Source of the DNA: Deltaproteobacteria bacterium
Lineage (GTDB): Bacteria; Desulfobacterota; B13-G15; RBG-16-54-18
NCBI GenBank assembly: GCA_019308925.1
Contig: JAFDHG010000023.1
Span: forward strand, 1 to 36,712
Length of the DNA stretch: 36,712 nt
Direction of reading: 5' to 3'
This document shows positions 1,878 through 25,437 of the stretch, piece after piece. Under the pieces are notes generated by a model. It was given only the letters and a program-made list of their open reading frames with translations, was not told where the DNA came from and did no database searches. The position numbers and the translations under genes were made by a program. The stretch's first letter is position 1. Every line of letters starts with the position of its first letter.

Positions 1878-2094
1878 CGCTTTTATCCTCCGTCACACAG
1901 AAACATTGATAAAAAATTCACTAACACAATAGAAAGATTATGTCAACAGTAGATTTATTTGCCCTTTTTACCATTGTTAGAAAATTTATAAGGAGACGAT
2001 GAGGGTGTCTCTTCGGTCCAACCCCAAAGAGTTATTGATTTGTGCGCTTTATTTCTTTAAACTACATTCCCAAAAATCTATAATGAGGGATTCC

Positions 2095-2853
2095 ATGGAG
2101 ATAGCGAGGTTTCTACACAAAGAGAGGGAGCGGTTTGGGGTTGTGAAAGGTGACGAGATCAAGGTGGCAGAAGGGGACATCTTTAGGGGATTCAAGCTCA
2201 CCCGACAGGTTTGCTCCTTAAAAGAGGTCAAGCTCTTGCCTCCTACCCATCCCTCCAAGATCGTGGCCTTGGGATTGAATTATAGGGACCACGCCGAAGA
2301 GGTCGGGCTGAAGTTGCCCGATGAACCCCTCATCTTTTTAAAACCGAGCTCCGCTGTCATCGGTCATCTGGATCATATCATCTACCCTCCTACATCCCAG
2401 AGGATCGACTACGAAGGGGAGTTGGGGATAGTGATCGGGAAGGAGGCCAAAGGGGTTTCCGAAAAGGGGGCCGAGGAGTTCATCCTGGGGTATACCTGCT
2501 TTAACGATGTGACCGCCAGGGACCTGCAGAAGAAGGATAGACAATGGACCAGAGGGAAGGGGTTTGATACCTTTGCACCTATAGGTCCCTGGATCGAGAC
2601 GCAGATAGACCCCGCAGGCCTAAGGCTGGAGACCTTTCTGAACGGTGAGCGCAAACAATCCTCCAATACCTCAAACCTCATCTTCAAACCCCGGCAATTG
2701 GTGGGTTTCATCTCGCAGATAATGACCCTCTATCCAGGGGATGTAATCGCCACCGGTACACCCTCAGGGATAGGCCCCATGGAGGTAGGAGATAGGGTAG
2801 AGGTCGCAATAGAGGGGATAGGGAGTCTGATAAACTTCGTCAAGAAGGGATGA
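2095..2853 (+). CDS. Fumarylacetoacetate hydrolase (FAH) family protein
   Basis: A 252-residue FAH-superfamily enzyme, which hydrolyses or decarboxylates C-C bonds of acylpyruvate-type or catechol-degradation intermediates using a divalent metal. Expected metal ligands are present: Glu107 and Glu109 in YEGELGIVIG, and Asp138 in CFNDVTARD. Other hallmarks are GLNYRDHA, the TxGKGFDTFAPIGPW-like block and GDVIATGTPSGIG. I chose ATG 2095, with GAGGGA 5 bases upstream, because family members begin about here (MEIARF). An in-frame ATG at 1999 has a good AAGGAG site and would add a 32-residue leader without family resemblance. The precise substrate is unknown; acylpyruvase and 2-hydroxyhepta-2,4-diene-1,7-dioate isomerase-like activities are both possible. 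Confidence 0.92.
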   Translation: MEIARFLHKERERFGVVKGDEIKVAEGDIFRGFKLTRQVCSLKEVKLLPPTHPSKIVALGLNYRDHAEEVGLKLPDEPLIFLKPSSAVIGHLDHIIYPPTSQRIDYEGELGIVIGKEAKGVSEKGAEEFILGYTCFNDVTARDLQKKDRQWTRGKGFDTFAPIGPWIETQIDPAGLRLETFLNGERKQSSNTSNLIFKPRQLVGFISQIMTLYPGDVIATGTPSGIGPMEVGDRVEVAIEGIGSLINFVKKG

Positions 2854-2979: not shown

Positions 2980-3135
2980 GCCAGGAGGAGAGAACATATC
3001 ATCACCACTCACAACCTCTGGGTGGCTGAGGCTGAGATGGAGTTTGTCCAAGATTTGATCGAGGAGTTCTCCCGAGGCGGATTTAATAAGATCAAACCTA
3101 TTGATGGGATAGAAGAGGACCATGATAGTCGGTGA
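2980..3135 (+). pseudogene. 3' remnant of a padR-type regulator gene
   Basis: The frame from 2980 to TGA 3133-3135 encodes 51 residues matching residues 142-192 of the intact PadR protein at 7396-7974 (ITTHNLWVAEAEMEFVQDL against ITTHNLRVAETEMEFVQDL). The wing-helix DNA-binding part is absent, and the break falls exactly at the former start codon behind the retained promoter. GAGGAGAG lies within the stub, but no in-frame start is evident, so it is probably not translated as a regulator. Its last codons overlap the start of the ligase gene by 14 bases, which suggests the two were translationally coupled in the ancestral operon. Confidence 0.85.
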
Positions 3136-5410
3136 TCACCTGAAAAGGCAGGCCCAAGAGAGGCCGGATAAGGTGGCTGTCGTCTGTAACGAGGTGAGGC
3201 TGAGCTTCTCCGAGCTCAACCTCCAGGCCAACAGGCTGGCCAATTGGCTTCTTGCACAAGGGTTAAAAAAGGGTGACAGGGCGGTGATGCTCCTTCCCAA
3301 CTGCGCCGAGTTCGCTGTGGCCTACTTTGCCCTCATGAAGATCGGGGTCATTGCGGTGATCCTCGATTTTCGCCTCAGTCCTCCGGAGATGGCCCCCCTC
3401 TTCGACGAGACAGAGGCGAAGGCCCTCATCACCCACTCCAGACAGAAGACCTTTGCCGTGAGGATGCTGCGAGAAAAGGAGGATCTGCGATATGTTGTCA
3501 TTATAGGCGAAGAAAAGGGGGAGGAAAACGGCATTTACCCCTATGAAAGGATTGTTGATGGGGGGGATTCTCAGCAGCCAACTATCCCCATAAACGAGGA
3601 GGATGAGGCCCTCTACCTCTATACATCGGGTACCACGGGAAGGCCAAAAGGGGTGGTTCTCACCTACGACCACTACACCTATTTTCCCGAGTCCATGAGG
3701 GCCTTTCATCCTATAAACGGTCAGTACGTAGAGGGCGCTGTGCTCCCTATGTCCCATATCTCAGGGCCGATCGTCCTCAACCTCATGGTGGACGTGGGCC
3801 TCACCTTGGTGATCATCGACGAGATAAGGCCCAAAAAGATCCTGGAGGAGGTACAGAGGAATAAGATCACATTCTTCCACGCCGTGCCCCCCATCTTTCA
3901 GATGATCCTCAATCTGCCCAGCCGTGACCGTTACGATTTGAGCAGCCTCCGCTATATTGCCATGATGGGGACGGTGGTCGCGGAAGAGCTCATGGAGGAG
4001 TGGGTTGAGGAGTATCCCCATATCGTGGCCCTGCAGGGGTACGGGGCCACGGAGACCTCCCCCCTGCTCACCCTCACCCGCTATGAGGATGCCCCCCATA
4101 AGATGGCCAGCGCCGGCCGACCTTGTCCCAGGGCCGAGGTCAAGATCGTGGACAAAGAGGGTAAAGAGCTACCCCCAGGGGAGGTAGGAGAGGTGATCGC
4201 CCGCGGCCCCCAGATCATGACGGGATACTTTAAAAACCCCAAGGCCACAGCGCTGAAGATCAAGGATGGCTGGTATTACACCGGTGACCTGGGTAGGTTC
4301 GACGATGATAGCTATCTTTATATCCTGGGTAGGGCCGATGACATGATCATCACCGGGGGGTCGAACGTCTATCCCTCAGAGGTAGAAAATGTCCTTATCG
4401 CTCATGACAAGGTGGCTGAGGCAGCGGTGGTGGGGGTACCGGACTCGGGGAGGGGTCAGGCCTTGAAGGCGGTAATCGTCCCCAAGGTGGGGGAAGAGAT
4501 CTCCAAAAGGGAGATTTTGAAATTCTGCAGGGAGAGGCTCGCCAGCTTTAAGATACCCAAGGTCGTGGATTTTCAGGACAGCCTCCCCCGCTCCCGCACG
4601 GGCAAGGTGGCCAAAAGGGAGTTAAAGGTCGTCGAGGGGGAGTTGAAAAAGTACTGGGAATTCCTGGCAGAACACAAGAAGTTCCTGGGGCCTTTAATCC
4701 TCATTACCCTCTGGTTTCTGGTCACTGTCTTCAAGATGGTGGACCCCTTCTTTCTCCCCTCCCCTGTGAAGGTAGGAAGACAGCTTGCGGAACTCCTCAG
4801 CACCGCATCGATCTACGAACATCTTTTTAAGACCTTTTACCGCATGATGGCAGGGTATTCCTTAGCTGTGGTCATTGGGGTACCGTTGGGCATTGTGCTC
4901 GGCTATTGGGAGAAGGTCTACGAATCAGTAGAGTTCATCATCGACTTCTTCCGTTCCTTCCCCGCTACAGCCATGTTCCCCCTCTTTATGCTCGCCTTTG
5001 GGATAGGGGATGGTTCCAAGATCGCTTTAGTAGTCTTCGGCTGTTCTTTGTTGATCTTGGTCAACACCACCTATGGGGTCCATGGCTGTAGCCGGACCCG
5101 CAAGATGGTGGCCGAGACCATGAAGGCATCGGAGGCATATATCATGGCCAGAGTCGTCTTGCCTGAGGCCCTCCCCCAGATATCGGCAGGGCTGAGGCTG
5201 GCCCTCTCCCTGAGCCTCATCATCATCGTGGTCTTGGAGATGTTTATCGGGACGAAAAAGGGGTTAGGATTTCTGATCTATAACGCCCACATGACATACC
5301 AGATAGCTGATATGTACGCCTTCATCATCCTGGCCGGCCTCATCGGCTATTTCATCAACCAGGGGTTTGTAAAGCTGGAGGATAAGGTTATACATTGGGC
5401 AGGTAGATAA
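3122..5410 (+). CDS. Acyl-CoA ligase fused to an ABC-importer permease
   Basis: One uninterrupted 762-residue frame. Residues 1-507 form a complete adenylate-forming (AMP-binding) acyl-CoA synthetase: P-loop YTSGTTGRPKG at 167-177, GYGATET at 306-312, YYTGDL at 385-390 and the A10 motif RTGKVAKREL with catalytic Lys495. Residues about 515-762 are a SsuC/TauC-type permease with several membrane segments (first about 520-540), PFFLPSP, and an EAA-type loop around 664-690 ending VVLPEALPQISAGLRLAL. The ligase would make an acyl-AMP and then an acyl-CoA in the cytosol; the permease forms the importer channel with the binding protein and ATPase encoded next. A TTG at 4643 preceded by GAGGGGGAG could also start a separate permease. 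ATG 3122 overlaps the padR stub. The fusion is unfamiliar to me; the substrate is unknown, with aromatic or aliphatic carboxylates plausible. Confidence 0.9.
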   Translation: MIVGDHLKRQAQERPDKVAVVCNEVRLSFSELNLQANRLANWLLAQGLKKGDRAVMLLPNCAEFAVAYFALMKIGVIAVILDFRLSPPEMAPLFDETEAKALITHSRQKTFAVRMLREKEDLRYVVIIGEEKGEENGIYPYERIVDGGDSQQPTIPINEEDEALYLYTSGTTGRPKGVVLTYDHYTYFPESMRAFHPINGQYVEGAVLPMSHISGPIVLNLMVDVGLTLVIIDEIRPKKILEEVQRNKITFFHAVPPIFQMILNLPSRDRYDLSSLRYIAMMGTVVAEELMEEWVEEYPHIVALQGYGATETSPLLTLTRYEDAPHKMASAGRPCPRAEVKIVDKEGKELPPGEVGEVIARGPQIMTGYFKNPKATALKIKDGWYYTGDLGRFDDDSYLYILGRADDMIITGGSNVYPSEVENVLIAHDKVAEAAVVGVPDSGRGQALKAVIVPKVGEEISKREILKFCRERLASFKIPKVVDFQDSLPRSRTGKVAKRELKVVEGELKKYWEFLAEHKKFLGPLILITLWFLVTVFKMVDPFFLPSPVKVGRQLAELLSTASIYEHLFKTFYRMMAGYSLAVVIGVPLGIVLGYWEKVYESVEFIIDFFRSFPATAMFPLFMLAFGIGDGSKIALVVFGCSLLILVNTTYGVHGCSRTRKMVAETMKASEAYIMARVVLPEALPQISAGLRLALSLSLIIIVVLEMFIGTKKGLGFLIYNAHMTYQIADMYAFIILAGLIGYFINQGFVKLEDKVIHWAGR

Positions 5411-5432
5411 ACAAAAAAAAGGGGGTATGCTT

Positions 5433-6389
5433 ATGAAGAAAGGATTGGTTTGCTTATTGGTCTTAGGTCTGCTGTTGCCCTTGGCCCTTTCCCCAGGGGT
5501 CGAGGCCAAGGAGCGGGTAGTGCGAATCGGGTATCTGCCGCTGGTGATGAGCCTTCCCACCTTCGTGGCGGCGGAAAAGGGCTTCTTTGCGCAGGAGGGC
5601 CTGGAGGTGGAGCTTGTGCGTTTCCAGTCGGGGACAACGGTCGTAGACGCCTTGGTCGCCGGAAGGATCGACGCCAACTGCGGTAGTGCCATCGTTACAC
5701 ACTGGTTCGCCGAGCAGAATGTGTCGGGGAGATTCAAGATTTTTCTCCTATATGGGACTGATTCAATGGAGGATGACAACACCTTTGTGGTGGTGGTCAA
5801 GAAGGACTCCCCCATCAAGGAGTTGAAGGACCTCAAGGGGAAGAAGGTGGCACACTTCCCTGGGGTTACGAATTTATCTCTGGCCAAGGCGATCATCCGC
5901 ACACAGATAGATCCCGAGGGGGTCATCTTCACAGAGATCCCCCCTCCCAACCTGGTCCCGGCCCTGGCTGCAGGCCAGATCGATGCCTTCTTCACCCCTG
6001 AGCCCTTCGGGATGATGGCCGTCTCCAAAGGGGTGGGAAGATACCTCAGAAAGAGTCCTCTTACTGTTTTAAATTTGGAGAAGGGGATTCCGGGAGGGGC
6101 CTTTTCCTTCTCGGCCAAGTTCCTGAAGAAGAACCCTGAGCTGGCCATAAAGGTCAAGACTGCTGTAGAGAAGGCTGTGGATTACATGAAGACTCATGAG
6201 AAGGAGGCGAGGGGATATCTGGCCAAGTATACCCAGCTCCCTCCGCCCGTGGCCATGGGGATACCCTTTGATAAGTGGATAAAGATCGAGGAGCTCAATA
6301 AGGGGGCTGGACAGGGTTACTTCGACGTACTATACAAAGAGGGTGCATACAAAAAGAGGATAGATACTACCAAATTGTATTACGAATAA
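5433..6389 (+). CDS. ABC transporter substrate-binding protein (NMT1/SsuA-like)
   Basis: A periplasmic solute receptor of about 318 residues. A cleavable signal peptide is clear (MKKGLVCLLVLG, hydrophobic to about residue 20, AxA-type site before KERVVRIGY), and no lipobox is placed correctly. The mature protein shows the NMT1/SsuA pattern: RIGYLPL, FVAAEKGFFAQEGLEVELV, DALVAGRIDA, ELKDLKGKKVA, ALAAGQIDAFFTPEPF. Such receptors serve importers for nitrate, sulfonates, taurine, thiamine precursors or aromatic acids. I prefer ATG 5433, 7 bases after the AAAGGGGG site, over ATG 5427, which is only 1 base from it. It lies 22 bases after the ligase-permease stop and ends one base before the ATPase start. 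The ligand cannot be read from sequence. Confidence 0.92.
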   Translation: MKKGLVCLLVLGLLLPLALSPGVEAKERVVRIGYLPLVMSLPTFVAAEKGFFAQEGLEVELVRFQSGTTVVDALVAGRIDANCGSAIVTHWFAEQNVSGRFKIFLLYGTDSMEDDNTFVVVVKKDSPIKELKDLKGKKVAHFPGVTNLSLAKAIIRTQIDPEGVIFTEIPPPNLVPALAAGQIDAFFTPEPFGMMAVSKGVGRYLRKSPLTVLNLEKGIPGGAFSFSAKFLKKNPELAIKVKTAVEKAVDYMKTHEKEARGYLAKYTQLPPPVAMGIPFDKWIKIEELNKGAGQGYFDVLYKEGAYKKRIDTTKLYYE

Positions 6390-6390
6390 G

Positions 6391-7215
6391 ATGGCCCAGG
6401 AAAGACCATATCTCTATGTCCGCGGCGTGAACAAGCACTACGACGCGGCCCCTGACCCTCGGATGGGGAGTGGGGGCCTTCGGGTCCTGGACAACATCTC
6501 CTTCACCGCTCAGAAGGGGGAGTTTGTCACCATCGTGGGCCCCAACGGCTGCGGCAAGACCACCTTCTTCCGCATGCTGGCTGGCCTCGATGATATGGAC
6601 TACGGGAGGATTCTCATTGGGGGAAAGACCATCGAGGAGGCGAAGGTCGGATATGTCTTTCAGAACTACCGGGAGTCCCTCTACCCCTGGCGCACCTGCC
6701 TGGGCAACCTGATAGTCCCCCTCGAACTCGATGGTATCCCACGCAGGGAGAGAAAGAAGAAAGTGGAGGAGTTCCTCTGGCGGCTCGATATGAGCGTGCG
6801 AGAGGACGCCTATCCGTATGAGTTGAGCGGTGGCCAGCAGCAGATGCTTGGCATCCTCAGGGCCCTCATCTATGAGCCCGATATCCTCCTTCTGGATGAA
6901 CCCTTCAGCTCCCTCGATTTCCAGACCACCCTCTACATGCACGATAAGATCATGGAGGTCTGGCAAAAGACAGGAGTAACCATCCTCTTTATCTCCCACA
7001 ATATCCATGAGGCGGTCTATCTGGCGGACAAGGTGGTGGTCTTCAGTAAAAGGCCTGCCCGGGTGGTGGAGGTAATAGAGACCAATCTTCCCCGTCCCCG
7101 CGACTACAAGGTAACCGAAAGCGATCAGTTCTTCGAGGTGAGAAACCGGGTTACGGAACTCTTCCGGGAGGAGATCATGGACAGCTTCCTCTTCATGGAG
7201 CTGAGCGGGTTTTAA
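6391..7215 (+). CDS. ABC transporter ATP-binding protein (SsuB/TauB-like)
   Basis: The 274-residue ATPase of the importer. All motor motifs are intact: Walker A GPNGCGKTT (50-58), Q-loop VFQNYRESLYPW, signature LSGGQQQ (145-151), Walker B ILLLDEP with Asp169 and Glu170, D-loop SSLD and the switch His in FISHN. It is expected to dimerise beneath the permease half of the ligase-permease protein and drive import. The N-terminus has a short insertion (AAPDPRMGSGG) before the first strand, and the C-terminus carries about 40 residues beyond the core. The start lies 1 base after the receptor gene stop with no good ribosome site, so translational coupling is likely. The last 7 codons recur in the right duplication copy at 8061-8083. 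Confidence 0.94.
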   Translation: MAQERPYLYVRGVNKHYDAAPDPRMGSGGLRVLDNISFTAQKGEFVTIVGPNGCGKTTFFRMLAGLDDMDYGRILIGGKTIEEAKVGYVFQNYRESLYPWRTCLGNLIVPLELDGIPRRERKKKVEEFLWRLDMSVREDAYPYELSGGQQQMLGILRALIYEPDILLLDEPFSSLDFQTTLYMHDKIMEVWQKTGVTILFISHNIHEAVYLADKVVVFSKRPARVVEVIETNLPRPRDYKVTESDQFFEVRNRVTELFREEIMDSFLFMELSGF

Positions 7216-7240
7216 AGTCAAGGTTTGAGGATTCTAGCGG

Positions 7241-7287
7241 TCAAGGGTTCATAGGCGTTTATAGGCTATATGTTACTCCACCTCCGG
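7241..7287 (-). pseudogene. Remnant of the 3' end of the acyltransferase gene
   Basis: On the minus strand this reads similarly to the last codons and downstream flank of the LpxL-type gene that ends at 8117 (CGGAGGTGG...ACATATAG..TATAAAC..CTATGAA). It is the scar showing that the duplicated unit originally ended inside that gene. It is far too short to encode anything. The perfect palindrome CCTCCGGCCGGAGG (7281-7294) marks the end of detectable homology. Confidence 0.6.
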
Positions 7288-7337
7288 CCGGAGGAAGACT
7301 CCCCTTCGTTATACCAGCTATGAATTCGTTTTTTTCC

Positions 7338-7380
7338 TTGACAATTTTTAGGGTTCGTTAAATATTTAATTTTGAATATT
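7338..7380 (+). promoter_or_regulatory. padR promoter with palindromic operator-like sequence
   Basis: TTGACA (7338-7343) and AATATT (7361-7366) are separated by 17 bases. AATATT recurs at 7375-7380, giving an AT-rich imperfect inverted repeat (TTAAATATT...AATATTAA) over the -10 and start region. PadR-family repressors usually bind such palindromes and regulate their own genes, so autorepression is a reasonable inference. The leader before ATG 7396 is only about 20 bases and has no convincing ribosome site. Confidence 0.6.
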
Positions 7381-7395
7381 AAGATTTAGAATAAA

Positions 7396-7974
7396 ATGGA
7401 CCTTCGGCTGGTGATAATGGGGCTCTTGGTGAAAGGGCCCAGTCATGGTTATGATTTAAAACTGACCCTGGAGAGGGAGCTGAGCCCCTTTGTTGAGGTC
7501 TCCTCAACCCCCATCTACTATACCCTGAAGAAGTTGGAACAGGAGGGATTGGTCACCAAGTGGAGCACCGTCTCCGGCAGGCGGCCGCAGAAATTTGTCT
7601 ATAGTCTGACTGCCAGAGGGCAGGAGGAGATAAAGGAACTCCTCCTCAAAAACATCACACAGTTGCAGCGCCCCTCCTTTAACCTCGACGTCTCCCTGTA
7701 CTTTCTCAACCTTCTTCCTGCTCAGGATGTGATGGAAACCTTGAAGGGGAGGTTGAGGGAGCTGCGCAAATTGAGGTTTTTGCTTAAAAGGCAGAGGAGG
7801 GGACTGGAGTCCGATTCTGCCAGCAGGAGGGAGCATGTGATCACCACGCACAACCTCCGGGTGGCCGAGACCGAGATGGAGTTTGTCCAGGACCTGATCA
7901 CGGAGTTCTCCCGAGGGGGATTTAATAACGCTAAACCCATTGATGAGATAGAAGAGGGCCGTGATCGTCGGTGA
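7396..7974 (+). CDS. PadR-family transcriptional regulator
   Basis: A 192-residue PadR protein. The winged-helix domain occupies residues 1-75: LVIMGLLVKGPSHGYDLK, then STPIYYTLKKLEQEGLVT (recognition helix region), then the wing SGRRPQKFVYSLTARGQEE. The rest is a mostly helical C-terminal region of the kind that dimerises in this family. PadR proteins are repressors, often responding to phenolic acids or other toxic small molecules. Here it is the only intact copy after the duplication, and its natural target is probably the importer/ligase operon, whose promoter at 2906 looks like its own. It overlaps the ligase remnant by 14 bases, the same overlap as between the padR stub and the intact ligase. 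Confidence 0.93.
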   Translation: MDLRLVIMGLLVKGPSHGYDLKLTLERELSPFVEVSSTPIYYTLKKLEQEGLVTKWSTVSGRRPQKFVYSLTARGQEEIKELLLKNITQLQRPSFNLDVSLYFLNLLPAQDVMETLKGRLRELRKLRFLLKRQRRGLESDSASRREHVITTHNLRVAETEMEFVQDLITEFSRGGFNNAKPIDEIEEGRDRR

Positions 7975-8083
7975 TCACCTGAAAAGGCGGGCCCAAGAGA
8001 GGCCGGATAAGGGGACCCTCATCTGTAATGAGGTGAGGCTGACCTTGTCCGAGTTCAGCTTCATGGAGCTGAGCGGGTTTTAA
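7961..8083 (+). pseudogene. Chimeric 40-codon remnant: ligase N-terminus joined to ATPase C-terminus
   Basis: The frame starts at GTG 7961. The first 33 codons (VIVGDHLKRRAQERPDKG...) match the start of the ligase-permease at 3122. The last seven (FMELSGF) are identical to the C-terminus of the ABC ATPase ending at 7215. The join is in frame and the ATPase stop codon is used. It is the scar of a deletion of about 4 kb. It retains the coupled start over the padR stop, so it may still be translated into a short peptide, but no function is expected. Confidence 0.82.
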
Positions 8084-8116
8084 AGTCAGGGTTCGAGGGT
8101 TCTAGTGGTCAAGGAT

Positions 8117-9049
8117 TCATAGATGTTTATAGTCTATATGTCTCTTCCACCTCCGGTGCCACCACCACCACTGTTCAGGAAAGCGCTCGATATATCCTTC
8201 GGTGAGCTTCATCAGAAGGGCTAGATTGCGGGCGACGTCCTGCTCCTTATCCCCGGTGATCTCCAGGGGGAAGGGCCTTTCAATGATCATCTTGTGCCTC
8301 CAGTCTCTATCAGCCAAGATAAAGGTGGGCAGGATAGAGGCCCCTGTCCTCATGGCCAGGACCACCGGCCCCTTGAAGGAGGGGACAGGGTAACCGAAGA
8401 AATCCACCATGATCTCTTTATAGGGGGGATTTTGATCCAGCTGGACAAGGAGTACCCCCCCTTGACGTAGTTGTTGCAGGGAACCTTGAGCCGCTGTCCT
8501 CCTCTTTCCACCATCGATAAAGCCGATCCCTACCTTATCACGACAGTGGTTAAAGAGCCCTGTCAGATACCTGTTTTTTGGATTCTTGGCGATGACTGCA
8601 AAGGGATAGCCCTCCAGGGCCAATTTGAAACAGATGAGGGGAAAATTGCCCAAATGGACGCTTATGGCGACGATCCCCTTTCCCTTCTTTAGGGCCTCAT
8701 CGAGGTTTTCTTTTCCTACGATCTCGATGCGTTTCTTCACCACCTCTGCTGGGAGAAAACAGAACTTCAACAGCTCCAGAAAGCTGATGACCGTATTGGT
8801 AAGACATCCTTGATAGATGGCCTGGATCTCCTGTTCGTCTTTTCTTTTACCGAAGACCAACCGCAGGTTGGCCAGGGCGATCTTCTTGCGCCTTCCCAGG
8901 CCGATGCGGCCCAGTTGTGCCAACGTCCTGCTCAAAGGATAGACCCAGGATAAGGGGATAAGCCTGATCAGGAGGATGAAGGCAGGGGCAAAAACAAAGG
9001 TCAACCCTTCACCCACGGCCTCCCATCTTCGGCGCCACTTTTTTTTCAT
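8117..9049 (-). CDS. Lysophospholipid/lipid A acyltransferase family protein (LpxL/HtrB-like)
   Basis: A 310-residue protein of the bacterial lipid A biosynthesis acyltransferase family, which adds a secondary acyl chain to Kdo2-lipid A precursors at the inner membrane. Features: an N-terminal membrane-associated stretch (about 15-40), the active-site region ISVHLGNFPL with His132, KNPKNRYLTGLFN, GGVLLVQLDQNPP, FFGYPVPSFKGPVVLAMRTGA and the C-terminal PEQWWWWHRRWK. The usual H-x4-D/E motif reads HLGNFP, with Pro137 where an acid is expected, so activity or substrate may differ. The last codons lie in the duplicated flank of the importer operon. It is transcribed divergently from the radical SAM gene. 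Confidence 0.88.
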   Translation of the reverse strand: MKKKWRRRWEAVGEGLTFVFAPAFILLIRLIPLSWVYPLSRTLAQLGRIGLGRRKKIALANLRLVFGKRKDEQEIQAIYQGCLTNTVISFLELLKFCFLPAEVVKKRIEIVGKENLDEALKKGKGIVAISVHLGNFPLICFKLALEGYPFAVIAKNPKNRYLTGLFNHCRDKVGIGFIDGGKRRTAAQGSLQQLRQGGVLLVQLDQNPPYKEIMVDFFGYPVPSFKGPVVLAMRTGASILPTFILADRDWRHKMIIERPFPLEITGDKEQDVARNLALLMKLTEGYIERFPEQWWWWHRRWKRHIDYKHL

Positions 9050-9182: not shown

Positions 9183-10541
9183 TTGAAGAGCAGAGACCTC
9201 CTCCTGATCAACCCCTGGGTCTACGATTTCGCCGCCTATGACCTCTGGGCCAAGCCTCTGGGGCTCCTCTATCTGGCCGCCCTCTTAGAGAAAAATGATT
9301 GGGAGATAAGCTACATCGACTGCCTCGATGTCCACCACCCTGCCCTAAAGGGGGGATTTAAACCACCAAAAAGGAGGCCAGACCATCGGGGGCATTTTTA
9401 CAAAGAGGTAGTGGATAGACCACCCCCTTTACAGGAGATCCCCCGCCGGTTTCATCGGTTTGGCATCCCTCCTGATGTCTTCAAGGAGACCCTACAATCC
9501 CTTCCCACGCCCCAGGCCATCCTGGTCACCTCAGGGATGACCTACTGGTATTTGGGGGTGCAAGAGGTCATCAAGGTTGTCAAAGAGGTCTTTCCGCATG
9601 TGCCCCTGATCTTAGGGGGGATATACGCCACCCTCTGTTCGGACCACGCAGAGAGGGGTTCGGGGGCTGATTTCATCATCAGGGGGTGGGGGGAGGTCCA
9701 GATCCTGGAGCTCTTGGATGAGTTGACAGGGGTCTCCCCCTCGTTCCTCCCTGACCTAAATGACCTCAATGACCTTTCCTATCCGGCCTTTTATCTTTAC
9801 CCCAGTCTAGACTACGTCTGCGTCCTCACCTCCAGGGGGTGTCCCTTTAAGTGCACCTATTGTGCCTCTCCCATCCTCAATCCTGGATTTTTAAAGAGAG
9901 ATCCCGCCAAGGTGGTTGAGGAGATCGCCCATTGGGTGAGGAGATACGGTGTGGAGGATATCGCCTTTTACGACGATGCCCTCTTGGTTGATGGACAATT
10001 CGCCATCTCTCTGTTGAAGGGGATAAAAGAAAGGGATATCGAGGCCAGGTTTCACACCCCCAATGGGCTCCATGCCCGAGGGATGACCGAAGAGGTGGCC
10101 AAACTGATGCGCCAAGTGGGATTTGCTACGGTCCGTCTCGGATTGGAGACCTCCAACCAGGAGCGCCAGTTGGCTACTGGTGCCAAGGTGAGCAATGATG
10201 CATTCAAGGAGGCAGTGCGGAATCTCCAACGGGCGGGCTACTCCCCTTGGGAGATAGGGGCCTATATCCTGGTGGGGCTCCCCGGCCAGAGCAAAGAAGA
10301 GGTAGAGGAGACGATCTGCTTTGTCTGGGAGAGTGGAGCTAGGCCATATCTGGCGGAATACTCCCCCCTTCCCGGTACCCCCTTGTGGGAAGAGGCAATG
10401 AAGGTTTCCCCCTTTGATCTGGAAGGGGAACCCCTGTTTCACAACAACACCATTTTGCCCTGTCGCTGGAAGGGATTGAGCTGGGAAGATCTGCGGGCCC
10501 TGAAGGGCATGGTCCAAAAGGAGGTTCCCGTTGCAACCTAA
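9183..10541 (+). CDS. B12-binding-domain radical SAM protein
   Basis: A 452-residue protein with the two-domain layout of cobalamin-type radical SAM enzymes. Residues 1-190 resemble a B12-binding Rossmann region (LLLINPW, PLGLLYLAALLEKNDWEISYIDC, VPLILGGIYATL, ADFIIRGWGE). From about 205 follows the radical SAM barrel with the 4Fe-4S triad Cys220-x3-Cys224-x2-Cys227 (SRGCPFKCTYCASP), then FYDDALL, RLGLETSN and GAYILVGLPGQSKEEVEET. The start is TTG 9183, with GAGGT about 8 bases upstream; no closer ATG fits the family N-terminus. Substrate is unknown: members methylate or rearrange diverse molecules, including membrane lipids. It is divergent from the lipid acyltransferase, which is suggestive but not proof of a lipid role. 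Confidence 0.88.
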   Translation: MKSRDLLLINPWVYDFAAYDLWAKPLGLLYLAALLEKNDWEISYIDCLDVHHPALKGGFKPPKRRPDHRGHFYKEVVDRPPPLQEIPRRFHRFGIPPDVFKETLQSLPTPQAILVTSGMTYWYLGVQEVIKVVKEVFPHVPLILGGIYATLCSDHAERGSGADFIIRGWGEVQILELLDELTGVSPSFLPDLNDLNDLSYPAFYLYPSLDYVCVLTSRGCPFKCTYCASPILNPGFLKRDPAKVVEEIAHWVRRYGVEDIAFYDDALLVDGQFAISLLKGIKERDIEARFHTPNGLHARGMTEEVAKLMRQVGFATVRLGLETSNQERQLATGAKVSNDAFKEAVRNLQRAGYSPWEIGAYILVGLPGQSKEEVEETICFVWESGARPYLAEYSPLPGTPLWEEAMKVSPFDLEGEPLFHNNTILPCRWKGLSWEDLRALKGMVQKEVPVAT

Positions 10542-21234: not shown

Positions 21235-24200
21235 ATGGAGCCGCTCTACTTGGGGATAGATGTGGGGTCGGTAAGCGCCAATACTGTGATAATAAACCGG
21301 GCGGGTGATATCTTGGAGGAGTATTATACCCGCCTTAGGGGTCAACCCCTGAAGAAGGTGGAAGGGGTCTTGGAGGAGATCCTCTCCCGCATCCCCGGCG
21401 AGAGGTTTGAGGGGATAGCCTTTACCGGCACCGGAGGAAAGGGCCTAGCGGAGCTTTTGGGAGGAGAGTTCTACAACGAGATCATCGCCCAATCTAAGGC
21501 CATCGGACGCCTCTACCCTCAGGTGAGGACGATCATCGACATCGGGGGGGAGGATTCCAAGCTCATCATTCTGGAGATGGAGGGTGATAGATTCAGAATA
21601 GAGGACTTCTCCATGAACACCCTCTGCGCCGCTGGTACAGGGTCCTTCCTCGATCAGCAGGCATCCCGGCTGGGGCTCACCATCGAAGAGTTTGCCCAAC
21701 TGGCATTGAAGTCGCAAAATCCGCCGCGGATCGCTGGCCGGTGCAGTGTTTTTGCCAAGACGGACATGATTCACCTCCAGCAGATCGCCACCCCAGACTA
21801 CGATATTGTGGCCGGGCTCTGCTACGCCCTGGCCAGGAACTTCAAGAGCAATATCGGCAAGGGGAGGGAGTTCCGCCCACCCGTGGCCTTTCAGGGGGGG
21901 GTGGCGGCCAATGCGGGGATGAAGAGGGCCTTCCTCGACATCTTGGAGCTGCAAGGGGATGAGCTCATCATCCCCCAACATTATGCCTCGATGGGGGCCA
22001 TCGGGGCGGTGTTGCTCGCCCTAGAGGAGGGGAGGTTTGAGGGGAAAGTATTTGAAGGGATAGGACGCCTCCAGGTGTATATCGACCAGCAGCGGGACAT
22101 AAAGAGGGAAGGGCGAGAACCCCTGACCCTTTCCCCCAGACACCTGGAGGAGAAGGAACGGGTCTACAAACCCAAGGCCCAAAACGGGAAAATCCCTGCC
22201 TATTTGGGGCTGGATGTGGGTTCCATCAGCACAAACTTGGTGGTTATCGACGAAGAGGAGCGGGTCCTCGCTAAGAGCTATCTGATGACGGCGGGCAGGC
22301 CCATCGAGGCCATCCGTCAGGGGTTGCAGGAGATCGGTGAGGAGGTCGGAGACCTGGTGGATATCCAAGGGGCGGGCTCTACGGGGTCCGGCAGATACTT
22401 GACAGGAGACTTTGTGGGGGCAGATATCGTCCGCAACGAGATCACCGCCCAGGCCACCGCAGCGGCCAACATCGATCCAGAGGTAGACACCATCTTCGAG
22501 ATCGGGGGGCAGGACTCCAAATATGTCAGTCTCGACAAAGGGGTCATCGTCGACTTTGATATGAACAAGGTATGTGCTGCTGGTACTGGTTCATTCCTAG
22601 AGGAGCAGGCGGAGAAGCTCGGTATCTCCATCAAGGGGGAGTTTGAGGAAAGGGCCCTGCGGGCCCCCTCCCCAGTGAGGATGGGGGAGAGGTGCACCGT
22701 CTTCATCGAATCTGATCTTGTCCACCACCAGCAACGAGGGGCAGGTACCGACGACCTGGTGGCCGGCCTCTGCTACTCCATCGTCCAGAATTATCTTAAC
22801 CGAGTGGTGGGGGATCGCCGAATAGGCAACAAGATCTTCTTCCAGGGGGGGACTGCCTTCAACAAGGGGGTGGTGGCGGCCTTCGAGAAGGTCTTGGGCA
22901 AAGAGGTCACCGTCCCTGAAAATCACGACGTGACAGGGGCCATCGGGGTGGCCCTCTTGGCAAAAAAGGAGCGCACCTGGGAGAAGAGCAGCTTTAAGGG
23001 TTTTGATCTGAGCCAGCGCCACTATGAGATCACCACCTTCGAGTGCAAGGGTTGTCCCAACATGTGCCTCATCAGAAAGGTGAGCATAGAGGGGGAGAAG
23101 CCCTTATTTTACGGGAGCCGTTGTGAGAAGTACGATGTGGTCCGCAGGAGCAAGGGGAGCCATCTGCCGGATCTTTTCGCCGAGCGGGAGGAGCTCCTCT
23201 TGGGTCCCTACCCAGGTGATGAGACCTTGGGAGATGATGTCCCGATCATTGGCATTCCTCGTGCCCTTCTATCCCATGAACTCTTCCCATTTTGGAAGGC
23301 CTTCTTCACGGAGCTGGGCTATAGGGTAGTTCTGTCTGACCCTACCAACAAGGAGTTGATCCGCCGGGGGGTGGAGGCGGTGGTGGCCGAGACCTGTTTC
23401 CCCGTCAAGGTGGCCCATGGTCATGTTATGAATCTATTGGAGAAGGGGATAAAGAGGATCTTCCTCCCCAGCATCATCAGTATGGAGAAGTTTCGGGAGG
23501 ACTTCGAACAGTCCCAGACCTGTCCCTATGTCCAGTCCTTGCCCTATACCGTGCACTCCTCCATCGATTTTAAAAGGTACGGGGCTCAGGTCCTGCAGCC
23601 TGTGATTCCCTTTGGCATGGGGTCCAAGGAGGTGGAGCAGGCCCTGATAAAGCTGGGGAGAAGATTGAAGAGGGGGGCAAGGGATATCCGCAGGGCCTAT
23701 GCCCGGGCACAAGAATACCAGAACAGGTTTTATCAAGCCATCGCCGCCCGGGGGAAAGAGATCCTGGAGGGGCTCAGGGAAGGGGAAAAGCTCATGGTGA
23801 TTGTCGGGCGTCCCTACAATAGTTGCGACCCAGGGCTGAACCTCGACATCCCCAAAAAGCTACGGGATCTAGGGGTGCTCTCCATCCCCATGGACTTCCT
23901 CCCCCTGGAGTCCATGGCCGGGCAAGAAGGGCTCAAAGATATGTACTGGAAATATGGCCAGAAGATCCTGGCTGCTGCCCACCTGATCAAAGATGATCCC
24001 AGGCTCTTCGGGGTCTACATCAGCAACTTCGGCTGTGGGGCCGATTCCTTTATCAACCACTTCTTCCGTGATATCCTAAATGGGAAGCCATACCTGCAAC
24101 TGGAGATAGATGAACATAGCGCCGATGCCGGGGCCATCACTAGGTGCGAGGCCTTCCTCGACAGCCTGAAGCATGCCCAAGGCCCCAAAGAAGAGAAGCG

Positions 24201-25437
24201 CCGAAGGGGGGAGATAAGGGGGGATGCTACCCGCACAATCTATATCCCTTATATGTGCGACCACGCCTTTGCCTTTGTTGCGGCCTTTGAGGCCTGTGGC
24301 CTCTCGGCCCGGGTCTTTCCTGAATCGGACCAGGAGACCCTCTATTGGGGCAGGAAATACACCACCGGAAGGGAGTGTTATCCCTGCATCCTGACCACAG
24401 GGGATATGATCAGGGTGGTCAAAGGCCCGGATTTCGACCCCCAACGGGTGGCCTTCTTCATGCCCTCGGGGAACGGCCCCTGCCGTTTCGGGCAGTATCA
24501 TCGTTTACACCGTCTTATCTTAGACGAATTAGGGTATGCCGATGTCCCCATCTACTCTCCTAACCAGGATGAGACCCTCTATAAAGAACTGGGGATCCTC
24601 GGTTCCGAATTCGATAAGCTCGGGTGGTGGGCAATAGTGGCGGTGGATCTCCTGATCAAAAAGCTCCACGAGACCAGGCCCTATGAGCAGAATACCGGGG
24701 AGACAGACCGAGTCTATAAGGAGTGCCTCGATCTGGTCTGTGAGGCCATCCGCACAGGGGGTGGGGAGCTGGAGAGATTGGAGGAGGCCCTCCGCGAGGT
24801 CCGGGAGAGGTTTGAGCGGATACTGGTGGTGGATCCCGGGAGCAAGCCGAAGATAGGAGTCGTGGGAGAGATCTATGTGAGGTCCAATCGCTTTGCCAAT
24901 GAGCACGTCGTCCGCAAAATAGAGGCCTTAGGCGGCGAGGCATGGCTTGCCCCTTTCGTTGAATGGATCCACTATATCAATGCCATGGCCCGCAGGCGTA
25001 GCTTTAACAGGAAGCATTTCTCCAATTTGCTCAGGATATTTTTGACCGAATACTACCAGAACAAATATGAACATAGGCTGGAACGCATATTTAAGGGGAG
25101 TATTAATAACCTTGAAGAGCCGAAGACTGCTGAAGTCCTTGAGCTGGCCAAACCCTATCTCGATTCATCGTTCGAGGGTGAGGCAATTTTGAGCATCGGC
25201 AAGACAGTGGACTTCGCCCTGAGGGGAGCCAGTGGGGTGGTGAACGTGATGCCCTTTACCTGTATGCCGGGGACCGTGGTGAGCGCCATCCTGAAGAGAT
25301 ATCGAGAGGAGAACAATAACCTGCCCGTCCTGAACATGGCCTATGATGGTCAGGAGCAGAGCAACATCATGACCCGCCTGGAGGCCTTTATGTACCAGAC
25401 CAGACAATATCAGGAGCACTGTCTGCGCCGGAGATAA
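21235..25437 (+). CDS. Large acyl-CoA dehydratase activase-related protein
   Basis: A 1400-residue protein. Two BadF/HgdC-type ASKHA ATPase domains stand in tandem, about 1-290 (LGIDVGSVSANTVII, DIGGEDSKL, Cys131 in LCAAGTGSF, Cys170 in GRCSVF) and 323-590 (LGLDVGSISTNLVVI, EIGGQDSKY, Cys447, Cys487). In HgdC the equivalent cysteines hold a 4Fe-4S cluster between two subunits; here the two halves may do this within one chain. A DUF2229-type region follows (CKGCPNMCLI, IGIPRALLSHELFPFW, AETCFPVK), then a half resembling the dehydratase component (GRECYPCILTTGDM, NGPCRFGQYHR). Such proteins probably use ATP to deliver low-potential electrons. No separate dehydratase subunits are nearby, so its target is unknown. 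Confidence 0.92.
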   Translation: MEPLYLGIDVGSVSANTVIINRAGDILEEYYTRLRGQPLKKVEGVLEEILSRIPGERFEGIAFTGTGGKGLAELLGGEFYNEIIAQSKAIGRLYPQVRTIIDIGGEDSKLIILEMEGDRFRIEDFSMNTLCAAGTGSFLDQQASRLGLTIEEFAQLALKSQNPPRIAGRCSVFAKTDMIHLQQIATPDYDIVAGLCYALARNFKSNIGKGREFRPPVAFQGGVAANAGMKRAFLDILELQGDELIIPQHYASMGAIGAVLLALEEGRFEGKVFEGIGRLQVYIDQQRDIKREGREPLTLSPRHLEEKERVYKPKAQNGKIPAYLGLDVGSISTNLVVIDEEERVLAKSYLMTAGRPIEAIRQGLQEIGEEVGDLVDIQGAGSTGSGRYLTGDFVGADIVRNEITAQATAAANIDPEVDTIFEIGGQDSKYVSLDKGVIVDFDMNKVCAAGTGSFLEEQAEKLGISIKGEFEERALRAPSPVRMGERCTVFIESDLVHHQQRGAGTDDLVAGLCYSIVQNYLNRVVGDRRIGNKIFFQGGTAFNKGVVAAFEKVLGKEVTVPENHDVTGAIGVALLAKKERTWEKSSFKGFDLSQRHYEITTFECKGCPNMCLIRKVSIEGEKPLFYGSRCEKYDVVRRSKGSHLPDLFAEREELLLGPYPGDETLGDDVPIIGIPRALLSHELFPFWKAFFTELGYRVVLSDPTNKELIRRGVEAVVAETCFPVKVAHGHVMNLLEKGIKRIFLPSIISMEKFREDFEQSQTCPYVQSLPYTVHSSIDFKRYGAQVLQPVIPFGMGSKEVEQALIKLGRRLKRGARDIRRAYARAQEYQNRFYQAIAARGKEILEGLREGEKLMVIVGRPYNSCDPGLNLDIPKKLRDLGVLSIPMDFLPLESMAGQEGLKDMYWKYGQKILAAAHLIKDDPRLFGVYISNFGCGADSFINHFFRDILNGKPYLQLEIDEHSADAGAITRCEAFLDSLKHAQGPKEEKRRRGEIRGDATRTIYIPYMCDHAFAFVAAFEACGLSARVFPESDQETLYWGRKYTTGRECYPCILTTGDMIRVVKGPDFDPQRVAFFMPSGNGPCRFGQYHRLHRLILDELGYADVPIYSPNQDETLYKELGILGSEFDKLGWWAIVAVDLLIKKLHETRPYEQNTGETDRVYKECLDLVCEAIRTGGGELERLEEALREVRERFERILVVDPGSKPKIGVVGEIYVRSNRFANEHVVRKIEALGGEAWLAPFVEWIHYINAMARRRSFNRKHFSNLLRIFLTEYYQNKYEHRLERIFKGSINNLEEPKTAEVLELAKPYLDSSFEGEAILSIGKTVDFALRGASGVVNVMPFTCMPGTVVSAILKRYREENNNLPVLNMAYDGQEQSNIMTRLEAFMYQTRQYQEHCLRRR

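Follow-up and report, generated by a model that had tools for sequence, protein, structure and literature searches.

A conserved fusion of an acyl-CoA ligase with an SsuC/TauC/NrtB-type ABC permease: a possible case of enzyme-coupled uptake

ABC importers are textbook transport systems that move their substrates without modifying them. In SsuABC, TauABC and NrtABC-CmpABC, a permease works with an ATPase and an NMT1/SsuA-type binding protein, and no enzyme domain is present on the known permeases. Where members of this importer group have been characterised, the solute is mostly nitrate, bicarbonate, a sulfonate or a thiamine precursor, and the known ligands of NMT1/SsuA binding proteins are small polar or heterocyclic molecules. 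NrtC and CmpC do have an extra domain, which is binding-protein-like and is located on the ATPase. Transport and substrate activation come together in vectorial acylation, in which the uptake of a solute is tied to its conversion to a thioester on the trans side of the membrane. FadL/FadD and Comatose with its synthetases are separate proteins, and FATP/SLC27 works without an ABC transporter. The fold of Comatose is of the exporter type, CouPSTU belongs to the branched-chain amino-acid type of importers, and Aas carries an acyltransferase domain in addition to its adenylate-forming domain and makes acyl-ACP. Acyl-CoA synthetases are associated with the peroxisomal ABC transporter Comatose and have been proposed to complete vectorial acylation (PMC6642094). 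In Rhodopseudomonas palustris, the aromatic-acid ABC importer CouPSTU works with the p-coumarate:CoA ligase CouB (PMC3610893), each encoded by separate genes. Covalent linkage of a transporter to an adenylate-forming protein has also been described, as LplT and Aas are fused as one ORF in some bacteria (PMC11416262).

The locus described here lies in the window, by which we mean the whole 36,712-nucleotide stretch of contig JAFDHG010000023.1 (assembly GCA_019308925.1, Deltaproteobacteria bacterium) that was analysed. An earlier note had read a complete adenylate-forming ligase, including catalytic Lys495, running without a stop into a complete permease, with the binding protein and the ATPase next in the operon. 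All of these points were borne out. The translation of the gene contains a single stop, which is terminal. Pfam AMP-binding matched residues 7-370 over its full profile (1-384 of 384, E = 1.9e-89), AMP-binding_C matched residues 420-495, again over the full profile (1-76 of 76), and BPD_transp_1 matched residues 586-743 of the same chain (1.6e-17, profile positions 1-165 of 184). The ligase motifs are intact, comprising the P-loop YTSGTTGRPKG, QGYGATE, TGD, GRADD and Lys495 in PRSRTGK (codon 4604-4606). The genes for the binding protein and the ATPase follow on the same strand (Table 1), the former matching NCBIfam SsuA_fam with 6.3e-42, a score below the cutoff of that model.

Table 1. Features of the fusion locus and its surroundings in the window
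Feature	Position	Strand	Basis or remark
Fumarylacetoacetate-hydrolase-family protein	1999..2853	+	Pfam 3.2e-69
PadR remnant, C-terminal 51 residues	2980..3135	+	overlaps ligase start; tblastn 78% to PadR residues 142-192
Fusion gene, acyl-CoA ligase + ABC permease	3122..5410	+	762 aa; full-length relatives
Adenylate-forming (ANL) acyl-CoA ligase domain	3122..4630	+	residues 1-503; Pfam, motifs
Junction/linker	4628..4684	+	about residues 503-521; alignment, pN/pS, AF2
Complete SsuC/TauC/NrtB-type ABC permease domain	4637..5407	+	Pfam, alignment, AF2, PDB relatives
Solute-binding protein, NMT1/SsuA-like, apparent signal peptide	5427..6389	+	Pfam NMT1_2 9.7e-33
ABC ATPase, SsuB/TauB/NrtD type	6391..7215	+	Pfam ABC_tran 5.5e-30
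Intact PadR-family regulator	7396..7974	+	Pfam PadR 2.7e-15
Remnant of duplicated ligase start	7962..8057	+	89% to first 97 bases of fusion gene
Duplicated ATPase-gene end + 3' flank	8059..8156	+	89% to 7191-7287
LpxL/lipid-A-type acyltransferase, convergent	8117..9049	-	Pfam PF03279 8.1e-44

Permease, ATPase and binding protein are thus all of the same kind as in SsuABC, TauABC and NrtABC-CmpABC, whereas the ligase on the permease has no equivalent in the known permeases and differs from the extra domain of NrtC and CmpC in both its nature and its place. As in LplT-Aas, a transporter is joined to an adenylate-forming domain; LplT, however, is an MFS flippase and not an ABC importer, and the transporter comes first in LplT-Aas while the ligase comes first here. 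Pfam found neither MFS transporter nor PlsC-type acyltransferase domains in the 762-aa protein, and the fusion is therefore not a member of the LplT-Aas family. In contrast with FadL/FadD, Comatose and CouPSTU/CouB, the link is covalent, and, unlike FATP, it involves a binding-protein-dependent ABC importer, of a family other than that of CouPSTU. Coupling of uptake to thioester formation, the hallmark of vectorial acylation, is for the fusion a proposal. An analogous arrangement with separate genes was found on a plasmid of Neorhizobium sp. EC2-8, where unannotated binding protein, ATPase, permease and ligase genes are adjacent ORFs on one strand. These are the same four kinds of parts as in the fusion operon, but the ORFs are separate, the ligase is last and the identity is only about 28-36%.

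The fusion gene is real and conserved. An uninterrupted ligase-permease architecture is present in 10 genomes including the window, at 78-91% identity. A six-frame search of 59 genomes yielded stop-free fusions of 762-765 aa in G001, G002, G003, G004, G006 and G008, and a further one in G007 whose 5' end is missing because the contig stops there. A scan of named genomes, which used two peptide patterns only and would miss independent fusions with other permease types, returned nine fused loci besides the window (L038-L046), L040 being among its additions. They come from several 'Deltaproteobacteria' MAGs, a 'Desulfobacteraceae' MAG and a 'Syntrophobacterales' chromosome, all named relatives being metagenome-assembled genomes. 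The last of these is a 2.07-Mb single contig (L041, the same genome as G392 of the phylum search); as the sole carrier among the 23 searched genomes of its class, it may owe the fusion to horizontal transfer or to mis-binning. At the order level, eight of ten genomes have the fusion, and the two without it are 80% and 68% complete. The earlier note had asked whether close relatives might always keep the two genes apart; neither the 395 phylum genomes nor the named-genome scan yielded an unfused close relative above 50% identity. On plasmids, no full-length fusion was found among the 60 best-ranked records; one plasmid record was counted as covering at least 80% of the query.

Could the fusion still be an artefact, either of an assembly that lost a stop or gained a frameshift or of a message from which an internal start yields two proteins? 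The members are metagenome assemblies, and the TTG at 4643, which the earlier note had considered as a start for a separate permease, follows a purine-rich run. However, ten assemblies agree, and for that reason an assembly error was rejected. The junction is, moreover, coding sequence under purifying selection: over columns 496-530 the mean pairwise pN was 0.132 and pS 0.621 (pN/pS about 0.21), as compared with 0.116 and 0.564 for the ligase (about 0.21) and 0.084 and 0.529 for the permease (0.16). In three of the eight aligned genomes, TTG 4643 is replaced by CTG (G004, G007) or CTC (G008). No start codon in the linker was seen to be conserved among the eight, and the Shine-Dalgarno-like run directly abuts the TTG. 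A separate permease start is therefore unlikely, and the TTG was discarded as an internal start since the codon is not conserved. Taken together, an artefact of either kind is very improbable.

The ends of unfused relatives define what has been joined. The shared ligase core closes with RELK (residue 502), and stand-alone cousin ligases extend beyond it by no more than about 11 residues; stand-alone permease relatives start shortly before the GPLILI... segment that forms TM1 of the fusion. Two whole proteins are thus connected by about 17-20 extra residues (VVEGELKKYWEFLAEHKK). In the AF2 model, a helix at residues 495-518 runs to TM1 at 522-536; because pLDDT is low in the linker (about 36-57 near the junction) and in much of the ligase half, this helix is a suggestion only. 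The permease was modelled with helices over 522-756 and pLDDT mostly 58-92. The ligase half was modelled poorly from a shallow alignment (pLDDT often <50), and no geometry was taken from the model. The N-terminus of the fusion is probably cytoplasmic, given a Lys-rich stretch (KKYWEFLAEHKK) ahead of TM1 and the dependence of the ligase on ATP and CoA.

The closest profile models and PDB relatives of the ligase half are CoA ligases, the best in PDB being FadD5, feruloyl-CoA synthetase and FadD13, with 4-coumarate:CoA ligases also among the best. Fatty-acyl and feruloyl/coumaroyl ligases score alike against it, and reading the substrate from the ligase sequence was dropped on that account. The core motifs (YTSGTTGxPKG, GYGxTE, TGD, GR-DD and the C-terminal Lys) are invariant in the seven fused ligases aligned. 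In the ligase tree, the fused ligases form one clade with support of 100/100, and their stand-alone cousins are 42-50% identical to the fused ligase where measured by blastp. In one other family, that of G021, G058, G093 and G121, such a cousin is encoded in a cluster of a PadR gene, the ligase and then one to three LpxL-type acyltransferases, the PadR being 45-47% identical to that of the window. Two other cousins (L131 and L133) cluster with a LolA-like/DUF1329 protein and a DUF1302 protein, joined in L131 by an MMPL transporter; such a cluster is likely a module for transport of hydrophobic compounds. No SsuABC-like importer was found beside the closest stand-alone ligases, and no close ligase homologue beside the closest stand-alone permeases. 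The partnership of ligase and importer is therefore seen in the fusion itself and in one distant example, the Neorhizobium plasmid. In the simplest history, with root and direction inferred, an SsuABC-like importer was acquired by a PadR-ligase unit, and ligase and permease were fused once.

As judged from its sequence, the permease belongs to the NitT/TauT (SsuC/TauC/NrtB) group, its nearest solved relatives in PDB being CmpB (1.5e-23) and NrtB (4.5e-20). Identity to the permease of the window is 80-94% among fused permeases, while the best stand-alone permease found reaches 49%; stand-alone relatives are mostly at 41-49% and align with the fused permease end to end. In the coupling loop, aligned for the window (4622-5407) and L038-L046, the VVLP end is present, and the Gly of the EAA loop is replaced by Lys or Arg (MKAS/MRAS) in all fused permeases. 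The Gly is present in 12 of the 13 aligned stand-alone relatives, and the replacement may reflect an altered coupling to the ATPase. The ATPase is 88-96% identical among fused relatives, and every one of them has binding protein and ATPase genes downstream of the fusion. Binding-protein genes number one to three in tandem per operon, which suggests several, perhaps small, ligands for one permease; in L042, L043 and L044, two or three of them separate the ATPase gene from the fusion. G004 encodes, between the fusion and the binding protein, a protein of 674 aa (L027:6069-8093, minus strand) that is apparently secreted and matches nothing in Pfam.

The fused group shares a gene order of PadR, fusion, binding protein(s) and ATPase, usually with a convergent LpxL-type gene. 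PadR is directly upstream of the fusion in seven relatives. An LpxL-type gene is near the fusion in 7 of the 10 genomes (the window and six others), and L041 has a different LpxL-type gene immediately downstream of the ATPase. A fumarylacetoacetate-hydrolase-family gene upstream is common to the window, G003 and G002. The window departs from this order, as the PadR sequence directly upstream is only a remnant. By sequence matches of 7819-8057 to 2980-3218 (85%) and of 7331-7397 to 2899-2960 (75%), the PadR-fusion-binding protein-ATPase unit appears to have been tandemly duplicated and then to have undergone complementary deletions. Copy one kept the fusion, the binding protein and the ATPase and lost the N-terminus of PadR; of copy two, PadR survives together with the end of the ATPase gene and some 96 bp from the start of the ligase, the rest having been lost. 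Because of this duplication the intact PadR is now downstream, from where it would act in trans. Elsewhere in the window, 9183-10541 encodes a B12-binding radical SAM protein that no NCBIfam model matched above cutoff, and 21235-25437 encodes a 1400-aa BadF/BcrA-type CoA-enzyme activase with a DUF2229 domain, of a type common in anaerobes.

We consider it probable that 3122-7215 encodes a NitT/TauT (SsuABC/NrtABC)-type importer with an acyl-CoA ligase on its permease, by which the imported acid is thioesterified. Conservation of the fusion, with purifying selection on both halves, makes a joint function of ligase and permease very likely. Their partnership would be more than an accident of fusion, as Neorhizobium has the same four kinds of parts in adjacent but separate ORFs. 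Enzyme-coupled uptake, or vectorial thioesterification, is the natural reading of such an arrangement, plausible but unproven. The interpretation in the earlier note is thus supported in part: its internal TTG start has fallen away, and that the imported solute is the substrate of the ligase, that the product is a CoA thioester and that uptake becomes irreversible are still proposals. The known solutes of the NitT/TauT/Nrt group, however, are mostly not substrates of CoA ligases.

In the scheme that we infer, which includes single-chain expression, the stoichiometry, the direction of import, the identity of the substrate and the hand-over between domains, the binding protein would catch a carboxylic acid in the periplasm, and a permease homodimer, assumed because there is a single permease gene, would release it with two ATPases at the cytoplasmic face. 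One of the two tethered ligases would then turn the acid, ATP and CoA into acyl-CoA, which would trap the substrate and commit it to lipid acylation or catabolism. The C-terminal subdomain of ANL ligases rotates during the catalytic cycle, as is established for the family. The tether starts just past Lys495, so this mobile subdomain would be the membrane-anchored part of the ligase. A tighter version, in which import and thioesterification of the same solute are conformationally coupled within one polypeptide as a covalent importer-ligase machine, is doubtful at present. As the substrate we slightly favour a small hydrophobic monocarboxylate; it is probably a hydrophobic aliphatic or aromatic one. 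The lipid-side context, with LpxL near the fusion and LpxL, MMPL and LolA-like neighbours of the cousin ligases, points to fatty or lipid acids, and the gene context of the stand-alone permeases was uninformative, giving no clue to the substrate.

Two versions of this importer-ligase reading differ in the substrate. If the acids were aromatic or other small organic ones, imported for anaerobic degradation through CoA thioesters much as CouPSTU supplies CouB, several observations would fit: feruloyl-CoA synthetase and 4-coumarate:CoA ligases rank high among the structural relatives, three genomes have the fumarylacetoacetate-hydrolase-family gene upstream, each operon has from one to three different binding proteins, and the BadF/BcrA-type activase lies further along the window. 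We regard this as a serious possibility, though short of probable, as genes for ring cleavage or beta-oxidation are missing from the conserved core of the locus, the activase is about 14 kb off and of a type common in anaerobes, and ligase specificity is unreadable from sequence at such a distance. Alternatively, a fatty or lipid-derived acid might be imported or flipped and its acyl-CoA fed to the neighbouring LpxL-type acyltransferase, so that the system would parallel LplT-Aas in function, with an ABC permease as its transporter. The recurrence of LpxL-type genes near the fusion, the PadR-ligase-LpxL clusters of unfused cousins, the MMPL, LolA-like and DUF1302 neighbours of others and the ranking of FadD5 and FadD13 argue for such lipid salvage. 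It is nevertheless the somewhat less likely substrate: the LpxL gene of the window is convergent and outside the operon, LpxL enzymes normally use acyl-ACP, NMT1/SsuA proteins are known for ligands of another kind, and feruloyl-CoA synthetase is as close in score as the fatty-acyl ligases.

It is also conceivable that nothing is channelled, the ligase being just tethered to the membrane or acting as a sensor domain that controls the importer, and the imported solute not being its substrate. The Nrt/Cmp group offers a precedent in the regulatory domain fused to the ATPase of NrtC and CmpC, and the related ligase does occur with PadR and LpxL without an importer. A pure sensor, however, would not need the full set of catalytic motifs, which are intact and under purifying selection, and importer and ligase also exist as a set of separate ORFs; we therefore hold this explanation to be rather improbable.

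The earlier note knew of no described ABC importer with a ligase domain, and our search of the open-access literature agrees, having found no description of a protein combining AMP-binding with BPD_transp_1 or of an enzyme-fused ABC importer. Fusion of a transporter to a ligase thus has a precedent in LplT-Aas, whereas an ABC importer of this kind was not found described in that literature. If the conformationally coupled version is true, the system would be, to our knowledge, the first case of an ABC importer altering its substrate chemically in the course of import, in other words a group-translocating ABC system. In a conserved importer with an activating enzyme on its channel subunit, primary active transport and group translocation would come together. 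Arguments on vectorial acylation have until now relied mostly on separate proteins, FadL/FadD and the ABCD transporters with their synthetases among them, and the fusion would offer a compact system for testing whether physical coupling is needed. For the uncultured bacterial lineage that carries it, the fusion predicts feeding on organic acids or recycling of lipids.
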